Shown piece after piece: positions 6 through 55,990 of a DNA stretch of 64,000 nt. Every line of letters begins with the position of its first letter. The stretch's first letter is position 1. The notes beneath the pieces were generated by a model that was not told the DNA's origin, searched no databases, and worked only from the letters and a program-made list of their open reading frames with translations. The translations under genes and the position numbers were made by a program. The stretch is from a virus. The stretch covers positions 1-64,000 of IMG/VR virus record IMGVR_UViG_3300010373_000043. One strand, 5' to 3'.

Positions 6-130
6 GTGCAGGGCCACGGCTGGCAGCTAAACGGTCGTCTTCAATTTTTTTACCGGCAACGGTCCGACCGCAAGACGGTTATCTCTATGCTAAAGAGGCT
101 CACTAGGTTCGACTCCTAGCCTGTACACCA
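6..130 (+). tRNA. tRNA with 57-nt insertion, anticodon GCT (Ser?)
   Basis: Acceptor GTGCAGG (6-12) pairs with CCTGTAC (120-126), followed by A and an encoded CCA. The T-arm CTAGG/CCTAG has loop TTCGACT. A miniature D-arm GCCA-CGGC-TGGC (13-24) follows the acceptor directly. The anticodon arm TCTCT-ATGCTAA-AGAGG (82-98) reads GCT. Between them lie 57 extra bases (25-81): outer stem CGTCTT/AAGACG, T-rich linker and hairpin ACCG-GCAA-CGGT. A serine tRNA would normally have a long variable arm; this one has only 4 nt there. Either an intron or an extra arm in the mature RNA fits. Confidence 0.7.
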
Positions 131-147
131 CTTTGAAAATTTAATAT

Positions 148-275
148 GCCGATCTAGCCCAACGGAAGAGGCGCCTAAAAAGATGGTCTCCACTTTTTGC
201 CCGGCAACGGTACGTCCGGTAGATCGTTATCTCTATGGAAGAGGGAAAGTCCTGGTTCGAATCCAGGGGTCGGCA
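148..275 (+). tRNA. tRNA with 56-nt insertion, anticodon GGA (Ser?)
   Basis: Acceptor GCCGATC/GGTCGGC with discriminator A275; CCA is not encoded. D-arm GCC/GGC is normal (157-172). T-arm is CCTGG/CCAGG. Anticodon arm TCTCT-ATGGAAG-AGGGA (230-246) reads GGA. The insertion at 174-229 repeats the plan of the first tRNA gene: stem TGGTCT/AGATCG, T-rich linker, hairpin CCG-GCAA-CGG, then GTTATCT. Removing 56 nt leaves a 72-nt tRNA. Confidence 0.7.
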
Positions 276-285
276 CAAATATTAT

Positions 286-415
286 GCAGCGTTCGTCTAA
301 CAGCTAGGACACCGGCATCCAGAGTCCTTCGAAACCCTTTTGCTCAGCAATGAGCCGCTATCTGAAGGTTATCTAATCCAAGCCGGTTATGTTGGTGCAA
401 CTCCAACACGCTGCC
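286..415 (+). tRNA. tRNA with about 58-nt insertion inside the anticodon loop, anticodon CCA (Trp?)
   Basis: Acceptor GCAGCGT/ACGCTGC is perfect, D-stem GTCT/GGAC, T-arm GTTGG/CCAAC with loop TGCAACT. No CCA is encoded. Anticodon stem CCGGC (312-316) pairs with GCCGG (382-386) across an interrupted loop. ATCCA occurs at both edges (317-321 and 376-380), so the exact junction is ambiguous. The insertion holds stem CCTTC/GAAGG, hairpin GCTCA-GCAA-TGAGC and then GTTATCT. Removing 58 nt gives a 72-nt tRNA. This is the clearest intron-like case of the three. Confidence 0.75.
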
Positions 416-2638: not shown

Positions 2639-3037
2639 GGGCTCGACAGGTATCGCTACGGGATACAGCGAGTCAGAACGCACGCAGAGAGCTGATGGGA
2701 TCTCTCTTAAAACAAGCCGGTCAAACATAAGCGACGATTATTCGTACGCGCCCGAATTCCGCGCGGCTGCCTAAAGCAGCTAAGCGAGGTCTCTCACGAG
2801 CCTGGGTCTAATCGTGAGTGGCGGCGGGGACCAACTTCGTTGGTTACTTCTCCTGTTTGCCGGAACATAAAACCGGATGGTGGAGGCGCCGAAAGGTGCC
2901 CTAGTCGGCCACAGACTTTAACTGTGGATGGTAGCGGGGACGGAAATACAGTGTCGGTGCTGTCTCACCTGACAAGCGTGTAACGTTTTGGCCGTGAGTC
3001 GCCGTATACGAGGGTTCGATTCCCTCCGGGTCCACCA
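2639..3037 (+). ncRNA. ssrA: tmRNA (one-piece)
   Basis: The tRNA-like ends are GGGCTCG (2639-2645) with CGGGTCC (3027-3033), then A-CCA. The T-arm GAGGG-TTCGATT-CCCTC and the typical GACAGG after the acceptor are present. The internal tag frame at 2730-2774 reads SDDYSYAPEFRAAA followed by TAA, ending in the Ala-Ala expected of a proteolysis tag. Pseudoknot-rich sequence fills 2775-2990. It rescues stalled ribosomes and tags the nascent chain for degradation. Phage-borne copies are known but uncommon. Confidence 0.93.
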
Positions 3038-13393: not shown

Positions 13394-13584
13394 AGCAGCT
13401 CCCACGCTCTTTCAGCGATCAATTCGCGGATGCGAGGATGAGGACGTGCGACACCGATCGCCCAGCGGCGCACCGTGCTCGCAGCTACTTCGAATTCGCC
13501 ACGCAATACATCTACAAACTGATCAGCCTTCTTGTGGCTGACGAGTAGAAGAATCAATTGCTGGAATCCCTCTTGTGAAATCAC
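13390..13584 (-). CDS. Cro/CI-like helix-turn-helix protein, 64 aa
   Basis: The GTG start (13584) overlaps the upstream stop within ATGTGA. Residues 30-55 (GEFEVAASTVRRWAIGVARP) resemble an HTH of the Cro type, with recognition helix STVRRW. It could regulate transcription. The short length leaves room for one DNA-binding domain only. Confidence 0.65.
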   Translation of the reverse strand: MISQEGFQQLILLLVSHKKADQFVDVLRGEFEVAASTVRRWAIGVARPHPRIRELIAERAWELL

Positions 13585-14669
13585 ATCGACTCCACGATCT
13601 CGATGCAGAGCTGATTGAGCGCTGCACGATTCGGTTGCTTCGGTAGCGGCGTGGTGAGGATGAGAGCTTCGAGATTCTTCTCTTGCTGCTCTGCCCACTC
13701 CAGCAGGTAGTCGAGCGTCCAGGCTCCATTGCGAATCGCCTTCAGCTCTTCAGCATCGGGACGCTTCACGATGACACCCTCACCGCGCATGATCTCTTGC
13801 GACATGCGCATGAGACGAACGAGGTGCATGCCGTGCTTCGTGTCGTAGCCGTACTTCTCTTCCAGCTCGTGACGAACGGCGTTGCGAGTCTTCTTCCATT
13901 CCTGGTACTGCTTCCATCGCTGGTGAGCACCGCGGTATCCACGCTCTTGCGCAAGATACTCCAGGAAGTTCTCGTCGAAGCCGAGCTTGCGGCCGGCTGC
14001 CGTCCACACGTCATTCTTCGAGTACGCAGCGATCTCTGTGATTGCGTCCTCGTACGTGCGCAGCAAGCCGATACGAAGGGCATCGTCGATCTCGGCGAGG
14101 TCCACACGCCAAGCTTCGATCTGCTTCTGAATCTGCGACTCAGCAGCACGACGCTGCTCGACGGACAGTGCCGTGTACTCCGGCAATCCGAATTGCGTAC
14201 GCGTCGGCTCCTCTTCCATCGGATTCGTGATCCAGTCGCGATGCGTGCGGATGCGCTTGAGCTGCGCCATTGCGTAGCCCGAGAATCTGTACTTCGCGTT
14301 CTGCGACAAGAACAGCTCACGTGCAGCGTGGATTTTCTCCCAGCGCTTGCTGACGTAGATCCAATCGTTGATCCAGGCAAGCTCGATAATGTTCGGATTG
14401 CAGTCCGCTGCCAGCTTCATGAACTTGCGAAGCTCGTAGTAGCAGCAGTCGTACGGATCGAAGCCCTTGTCAGCTTGCTCGAACGTGTCGGTGAAGCCGA
14501 AGTCGTACTCCCTCGGAGCTACGCATACGCCCTTGACGTCGATGTCGCTTGTGGGCCCGTTGGTGCCGTACGCATGCGAGCCGTGCTTCATTAGCACAAG
14601 CGTGCGTCCGAAGATCCACTTCTGGTTGCCCTTGTAGGCGTTGTAGATGTCGTTCTCAGTTACGGTCAT
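13581..14669 (-). CDS. RlaP-like nucleotidyltransferase, 362 aa
   Basis: The N-terminus shows the polβ-type motif GSHAYGTNGPTSDIDVKG (30-47): GS followed by DxD acid residues Asp42 and Asp44. The length and long helical C-terminus fit the predicted nucleotidyltransferase group that includes RlaP (RNA-repair-associated polβ enzymes). Such enzymes are often encoded with RNA ligases. In this phage, KptA and a CCA-adding enzyme are also present. An RNA end-modifying role is inferred, not shown. Confidence 0.78.
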   Translation of the reverse strand: MTVTENDIYNAYKGNQKWIFGRTLVLMKHGSHAYGTNGPTSDIDVKGVCVAPREYDFGFTDTFEQADKGFDPYDCCYYELRKFMKLAADCNPNIIELAWINDWIYVSKRWEKIHAARELFLSQNAKYRFSGYAMAQLKRIRTHRDWITNPMEEEPTRTQFGLPEYTALSVEQRRAAESQIQKQIEAWRVDLAEIDDALRIGLLRTYEDAITEIAAYSKNDVWTAAGRKLGFDENFLEYLAQERGYRGAHQRWKQYQEWKKTRNAVRHELEEKYGYDTKHGMHLVRLMRMSQEIMRGEGVIVKRPDAEELKAIRNGAWTLDYLLEWAEQQEKNLEALILTTPLPKQPNRAALNQLCIEIVESM

Positions 14670-55036: not shown

Positions 55037-55451
55037 AAAGTCCCTCGTAGGTGACGCCGCGTGTAGGCCAGAGTATGATCACGGGCTTGTCGATCTTGCG
55101 AGCGTAGTCGACCGTGTACCACGTGCCACCCTTCGATTCTTCGAAATCGTTGTAGGGTGTGGCGATCAGAACCTCGCTCGCGTGCACAATGTCACGGTTG
55201 CGAGCGAAGTGAGTTTTCTCCGGGAACATCATCACAGAGCCCTTGCAGAAGGCTCGGTGCTTGTCGTCGACAGGAGGATGGATGTGAACGAAGCCACCGA
55301 CAGCGATTGTCAGATAGTGAGCTTCTTTGTCTGCACCTTCGCAGTCGCCATGATGCAATTCGACGGATGATCTTTCAGAAAGGATCCGCTCCAGGTTGTG
55401 GAGCTGTAATTCCGTCATGCCGAAACGAGTGCCGGTGAAGCCGATCTTCAT
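55029..55451 (-). CDS. SLOG/DprA-like nucleotide-binding protein, 140 aa
   Basis: MKIGFTGTRFGMTELQLHNL, then HHGDCEGADKEAHY, then RNRDIVHASEVLIATP and KGGTWYTVDYARKIDKPV follow the SLOG (LOG/DprA-like Rossmann) layout, with a GTRxG-type phosphate loop. SLOG proteins bind nucleotide-derived ligands; it may process or sense an ADP-ribose-like product. It overlaps the KptA gene by ATGA, suggesting a linked role with its NAD-using chemistry. Confidence 0.75.
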   Translation of the reverse strand: MKIGFTGTRFGMTELQLHNLERILSERSSVELHHGDCEGADKEAHYLTIAVGGFVHIHPPVDDKHRAFCKGSVMMFPEKTHFARNRDIVHASEVLIATPYNDFEESKGGTWYTVDYARKIDKPVIILWPTRGVTYEGLSL

Positions 55452-55990
55452 GGAAGGGTAGCGGTCAGATACTTTGCCGGAATGTCGTCGCTGAGCCACA
55501 CGCCATTGTCGGCACGATAGAAGCGGATCCCGTCCTTGTGAGCTTGCAGAGCGTTTACCTGGATCAAGACCGGCTTGCCTCGACGAGCACCGACCTCGAC
55601 GGCTGCTGCCGTTGTCTCTGAAAGATGAACGTGCGTGCGCTTCATCTTGCTTAGGCCCGTGTCGAAGATCTCGCTGAGCACTGCTGTGTGCGTCCCGTGG
55701 AAGAGCATGTCAGGCGGCTCGACCGTCGGCAGATTCAAATCGACGTCGACGCTGTGACCCTGAGCGGCCTTGATGAAGAGAGTGCCAGCACCGTGAACGA
55801 TGAAGCGAACCTTGTCCGATGGAGTCGTGACAACCTCCATGATCTCCTCGACGGTGCGACCAAGAGCCTCAGCGAGCCTGTCGAGTGGCACGTTGCCTTC
55901 GAGCCCGAGCGTGAGACCAAATTCCTCAGGATGATGTCGCAACGCGTACGACATCTTCTTGCTGAGCTTCGTTCGTTCCTTTTCAGTCAT
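55448..55990 (-). CDS. kptA: RNA 2'-phosphotransferase KptA/Tpt1, 180 aa
   Basis: Whole-length match to KptA: KKMSYALRHHPEEFGLTL, DKVRF, QGHSVDVDL, LFHGTHTAVL, MKRTHVHLSE and GVWLSDDIPAKYL. The catalytic Arg18-His19-Arg62-Arg118 set is present. The enzyme removes an internal 2'-phosphate from RNA by transfer to NAD+, giving ADP-ribose 1''-2''-cyclic phosphate. That mark arises when tRNA exons are joined by plant/fungal-type ligases. Here it sits with SLOG-like and small genes, in a phage with insertion-bearing tRNA genes. Confidence 0.93.
   Translation of the reverse strand: MTEKERTKLSKKMSYALRHHPEEFGLTLGLEGNVPLDRLAEALGRTVEEIMEVVTTPSDKVRFIVHGAGTLFIKAAQGHSVDVDLNLPTVEPPDMLFHGTHTAVLSEIFDTGLSKMKRTHVHLSETTAAAVEVGARRGKPVLIQVNALQAHKDGIRFYRADNGVWLSDDIPAKYLTATLP

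Follow-up and report, generated by a model that had tools for sequence, protein, structure and literature searches.

The window, that is, the whole stretch of DNA analysed (64,000 nucleotides), corresponds to bases 1-64000 of a 71,188-base IMG/VR virus record. The record of this phage is tRNA-rich and also contains a tmRNA, from which the host is probably a bacterium. The features considered here were:

6..130, plus strand: tRNA gene 1 (acceptor stem 6-12/120-126, T arm 103-119, CCA 128-130)
29..82, plus strand: insert 1, 54 nt, predicted intron AAACGG..GGUUAU, after tRNA nucleotide 27
148..275, plus strand: tRNA gene 2 (acceptor stem 148-154/268-274)
177..230, plus strand: insert 2, 54 nt, predicted intron AAAAAGAUGG..CGUUAU, after tRNA nucleotide 29
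286..415, plus strand: tRNA gene 3 (acceptor stem 286-292/408-414, anticodon stem 312-316/382-386)
319..376, plus strand: insert 3, 58 nt, inside the anticodon loop, with ends ambiguous by a few nt
2639..3037, plus strand: tmRNA, a context feature outside the intron system
13581..14669, minus strand: RlaP, RNA-repair nucleotidyltransferase (PF10127, E = 5.3e-17)
55448..55990, minus strand: Tpt1/KptA RNA 2'-phosphotransferase (PF01885, E = 2.1e-42), candidate remover of a splice-junction 2'-phosphate

In all three tRNA genes an acceptor stem of 7 bp is present together with a T arm. The predicted anticodon is GCU in gene 1, whose D arm is degenerate, and AUG in gene 2 (GGA in another register). 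None of these insert-bearing genes was detected by ARAGORN or by Rfam at the gathering score. In agreement with a preliminary description of the locus, each insert contains an outer stem (36-41/72-77, 184-189/221-226 and 326-330/364-368 in inserts 1, 2 and 3, respectively), a T-rich linker and, after the stem, the sequence GTTATCT (78-84, 226-232 and 368-374), of which no further copy is present in the 71-kb record. The statement that the hairpin is always capped by GCAA holds for the three window inserts; in the family described below the hairpin stem is kept and the loop varies. Single-sequence folding gave z values of -1.7, +0.5 and -2.7 for the inserts of genes 1, 2 and 3, respectively; for the first two genes this is a weak signal, so that the support for the fold is comparative.

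Relatives were sought by scanning IMG/VR with patterns derived from the window inserts, which returned chance matches as well; the matches of one loose insert pattern were due to chance and were discarded. About 25 further large-phage contigs were found to have the same element in tRNA arrays or tRNA genes; many of these contigs are longer than 100 kb, and the largest is of 368 kb. The contigs are metagenomic fragments, and some records are near-duplicates (L265/L290, L278/L301, L283/L289, L246/L268 and L240/L287). A covariance model search, as earlier suggested, was carried out with model R2, built from 33 relatives without any window sequence, and ranked the window inserts first, second and third (29-82, E = 1.5e-5; 178-230, E = 5.9e-5; 324-372, E = 0.42), with no other match at E ≤ 10 within the 64 kb. 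Three contigs found later by pattern also matched R2 (E from 2e-15 to 7.5e-8). With model R1, which includes insert 3, an E value of 2.3e-6 was obtained for that insert, and 26 of 32 large-phage records were matched, with 59 matches at E ≤ 0.01; a downstream T arm was located by script in 46 of 52 matches, and the acceptor partner too in 43. When named phages and plasmids were searched by BLASTN with the tRNA and its insert, nothing useful was obtained, and a search for relatives by the baseplate protein returned a single identical contig. A narrow scan of bacterial genome contigs, with a pattern that fits only a minority of the members, gave seven matches, none of them in a tRNA.

The alignment of 36 members contained 12 base pairs, with 95.1% of the cells paired and double changes in eight of the pairs; this proportion of paired cells was reached in none of 500 shuffles, and slid controls gave 15-59%. 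When 51 distinct copies were aligned, 94.9% of the cells in the 12 base pairs were paired, nine pairs had compensatory changes and both partners had changed in 106 cells (0 of 500 shuffles; slid controls, 17-57%). The 36-member figure is the cleaner one, because the 51-copy alignment was fitted to the model. The earlier observation that pairing is kept while the stems differ was thus extended to 51 homologous copies, and homologues with the same pairing in related phages, whose absence had been taken in advance to indicate decaying genes, were looked for and found. These alignments demonstrate, at the level of sequence, a fold made of an outer helix with the consensus AUCGUUUG/UGAAUGGU, including conserved G.U pairs, and an inner hairpin (GUUG..CAAC) with a conserved single-stranded CUUUUU before it and CG after it. 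Conserved across the family are AAAAC-AUCG, U-rich-UUG, CCG and GGUUAU. An extra GNRA hairpin was observed at the 5' side of the insert in L265, L266, L296 and L298.

Inserts 1 and 2 had been placed between the D arm and the anticodon arm; they actually lie within the 5' strand of the anticodon stem. In most members this strand is split after nucleotide 27, 28 or 29 (fully paired genes: after 28 in 14, after 27 in four and after 29 in three), by an insert of 50-59 nt (median 53). Enumeration of the possible excisions usually gave a single best solution, exon1^(U)AAA.../GGUUAU^C, and removal of (U)AAA..GGUUAU restored a 5-bp anticodon stem and a 7-nt loop; at the junction of insert 2, CCU|CU pairs with AGAGG. 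In an anchored test, with the D arm, the T arm and the GGUUAU end as anchors and 6-bp T stems allowed, the upstream nucleotides 27-29 paired with 43-41 in 35 of 41 cases, against 20.7 (sd 2.4) when upstream parts were swapped between genes, with none of 20,000 swaps as high; the insert's own last bases paired at this position in 21 of 41. The test was weaker before 6-bp T stems were allowed (19 of 29; 79 of 10,000 shuffles), and a fully paired stem was obtained in only 14 of 19 strictly parsed genes. Independently, the Rfam tRNA model aligned several genes with CC:GG paired and the insertion next to it. Most of 14 excised sequences folded freely as cloverleafs, and three aligned across the junction, at 76-81% identity, with other sequence, apparently uninterrupted tRNAs. 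Excision restored a canonical tRNA, with the boundaries of gene 3 and the poor D arm of gene 1 as exceptions, and the boundaries and exon complementarity of the family are established, as far as sequence comparison goes, by these results.

Insert 3 splits the anticodon loop, as first described, and belongs to a group with L112, L246, L265, L454 and L455 in which the exact ends are ambiguous. In the anticodon-loop members L112, L246, L265, L266, L454 and L455 an unusual C.A mismatch occupies the centre of the anticodon stem (GCCGC/GCAGC or a variant). As a separate observation, anticodons starting with A, except ACG, were found in 5 of 20 insert-bearing tRNAs in L341-L379 (ACU, AUC, AUU, AGA, AUG) and in 6 of 428 ARAGORN tRNAs of the same neighbourhoods (Fisher p = 4e-5).

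At about ten loci (L272, L287/L240, L276, L302, L251 and others; none was found in the window) the tRNA gene is permuted, with the 3' half first. The order is the 3' part of the insert, the anticodon arm, the T arm and the acceptor 3' strand, then a short linker (AAAATGA, CCTAG, GAAA), and after it the acceptor 5' strand, the D arm and the 5' part of the insert. The break falls in the hairpin loop of the insert, and the transcript ends are complementary, as in L272 (GTTGATTA/TAATCAAC) and L287 (GTTCAGTTTT/AAAACTGAAC). The two ends of the same gene paired over at least 7 bp in 10 of 15 cases; with equal search freedom, 11 of 210 combinations of ends from different genes did so. The 3'-half-first order with a short acceptor linker and the pairing of the transcript ends, both features of permuted tRNA genes, were present. 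Without joining of the halves, or an RNA that works in two pieces, such an order yields no tRNA; these loci therefore provide the strongest sequence argument for splicing. Permuted tRNA-like sequences with the insert motif and without a normal D arm were also seen in L249 (minus strand, offset about 4448) and L259 (plus strand, about 7791). About 1 kb from the permuted tRNA gene of L272 lies a GOLLD RNA (L272:3172-3629, RF02032, E = 3.9e-56). No permuted tRNA gene of a phage or bacterium was found reported in the open-access PMC literature.

The element was compared with known systems. Group I introns, which have a P3-P9 catalytic core and usually exceed 200 nt, occur in genes of bacteria and phages, and also in bacterial tRNA anticodon arms, whereas the inserts are about 53 nt long and lack a group I core; the early judgement that they are too short for this class agrees with the 50-60 nt range and with the lack of a match to any Rfam intron family. 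Bulge-helix-bulge (BHB) tRNA introns of archaea and eukaryotes have a 4-bp helix between two 3-nt bulges that hold the splice sites. The inserts resemble them in being small, in occurring at several tRNA positions and in a structure-based removal signal, but have sequence-specific splice sites (AAA.., GGUUAU) and an 8-bp consensus helix flanked by about 5 nt (AAAAC) at one side and by 3 nt (UAU) at the opposite side. Circularly permuted tRNA genes are known from algae and Thermofilum (PMC3978253, PMC3218864), with the same 3'-half-first order, short linker and paired ends; those described here are phage-borne, would be joined in the anticodon stem or loop via the new intron and not a BHB motif, and in some cases have GAAA linkers.

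The closest precedent is that of the Lak megaphages, whose tRNA introns of unknown class were reported as the first in phage tRNAs (Devoto 2019, PMC6784885). Both these and the present inserts are short, unclassified and located in tRNA genes of very large phages. R1 gave no significant match on Lak-A1, A2 and B1 (best E = 0.13, over a 31-nt stretch), and two Lak anticodon-region inserts (L448:29-143 and L449:55-158) share a different motif, CCAAATCCCAGGGATAAGAGAT..AGAAGATTTT, possibly that of a second small intron family. The Lak tRNA introns, although prior art, belong by these comparisons to a different sequence family. Permuted genes, present in the phages studied here, are not mentioned for Lak megaphages in the passages of PMC6784885 consulted.

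Candidate enzymes were searched for in the insert-bearing records. EndA (PF01974) was found in none of 23, many of which are fragmentary, while four archaeal controls were positive; a host enzyme is possible. RtcB was likewise absent from the insert-bearing records. An Rnl2-type RNA ligase (RNA_ligase, PF09414) was encoded in 15 of 24 records, among them every one of the eight contigs with a length of 190 kb or more; it was present in four of nine other jumbo phages, a small and unmatched comparison. Tpt1 was found in six of the eight contigs of at least 190 kb, in addition to the window phage. In eight contigs the ligase gene lies about 2-12 kb upstream of the insert-bearing tRNA on the same strand, and in five of these an HNH-like N-terminal stretch, weakly matching the IscB HNH region, is fused to the ligase (L392:16169-17296, L393:3912-4967, L394:6330-7355, L395:15010-16065 and L396:13948-15015). 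Tpt1 and the ligase also occur in phages without the element. Tpt1 was rejected as its sole marker because several Tpt1-bearing named phages lack the element, and RlaP was not distinctive as a marker. Genes resembling GIY-YIG and HNH homing endonucleases recur in the tRNA arrays of ten contigs (neighbourhoods L391-L410). T4-type phage RNA-repair systems have been proposed to mend tRNAs cut by host nucleases, and the HNH-Rnl2 fusion type has already been noted (Iyer 2021, PMC7824862). Rnl2, also as HNH-Rnl2 fusions, KptA and RlaP occur in the phages studied here; the difference is the splicing role that we infer for these enzymes.

The explanation that we prefer, with a probability of about 0.8, is that each insert is an intron of about 50-60 nt, of a class not described before, which would be cut out of the tRNAs of large bacteriophages with joining of the exons. 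The intron RNA would fold into the outer helix and the inner hairpin joined by the conserved single strands, the cuts would fall at exon1^(U)AAA(A)C and at GGUUAU^C, and exon joining would complete the anticodon stem. In a permuted transcript the two ends would rebuild the hairpin, and their joining would give a circular precursor, to be opened at the acceptor stem. The reaction would be carried out by phage enzymes: a putative endonuclease, the Rnl2-type RNA ligase and often Tpt1, which would clear the 2'-phosphate from the junction. We infer that splicing occurs and that phage proteins perform it, and an RNA-splicing reaction probably operates in the bacteria that these phages infect.

Self-cleavage, and perhaps self-joining, by the conserved 50-nt fold, with proteins at most assisting, appears unlikely. 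The strong conservation of unpaired positions (the UUG linker, CCG and GGUUAU), a size within the range of small self-cleaving RNAs, the tolerance of many ribozymes to a break in a variable hairpin loop, such as that of the permuted genes, and the lack of both EndA and RtcB would agree with a ribozyme. However, no Rfam ribozyme family was matched, 50 nt is little for two cuts plus joining, and we know of no self-splicing RNA as small as about 50 nt. Although EndA and RtcB are absent, phage-aided enzymatic splicing is favoured, because RNA_ligase, Tpt1 and ligase genes near the inserts are present.

The preliminary description had left the choice between a tiny intron and an arm kept in the mature tRNA. 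The homologues with compensatory changes, the restored stem and the permuted genes speak for the intron. A retained arm, in which case the insert helices would hold together the two pieces of a nicked tRNA made from a permuted gene, is quite improbable: the inserts fall within the anticodon stem or even the anticodon loop, and a permuted gene depends on joining of its halves. Its conserved fold and the known two-piece permuted tmRNAs of bacteria (PMC3978253) would fit such an arm, but the anticodon-loop members, which have the same element, would then lack a readable anticodon, and a 50-nt arm between nucleotides 28 and 29 would fall where the small subunit holds the tRNA. Least probable of all, in our view, is that a small mobile DNA element without an RNA role invaded tRNA genes that are decaying or serve as decoys. 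Genes 1 and 3 of the window are indeed imperfect tRNAs, and homing-endonuclease-like genes (GIY-YIG, HNH) lie near many arrays; against this, covariation in the 51 copies and the permutation largely refute decay, the element has a single orientation in tRNAs, its excision restores the stem, and the permuted genes would be left unexplained.

According to the general view, the introns of bacteria and phages are all self-splicing, of group I or II; enzymatic removal of tRNA introns and permutation of tRNA genes belong to the textbook picture of archaea and eukaryotes. We consider it somewhat probable that a 50-nt intron with its own fold and splice sites is spliced in bacteria while a phage infects them, be it as the smallest known self-splicing RNA or through a new set of phage enzymes. 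It would then also be able to drive the expression of permuted tRNA genes, which would be the first of their kind in viruses or bacteria. Undercounts of phage tRNAs by tRNA finders would be explained by such a class of intron; ARAGORN and the Rfam default cut-off missed all three window genes. If the reading is true, phage Tpt1 and RNA ligase genes would have a concrete substrate, and the compact intron class together with the permuted genes would represent a separate origin of tRNA splicing.
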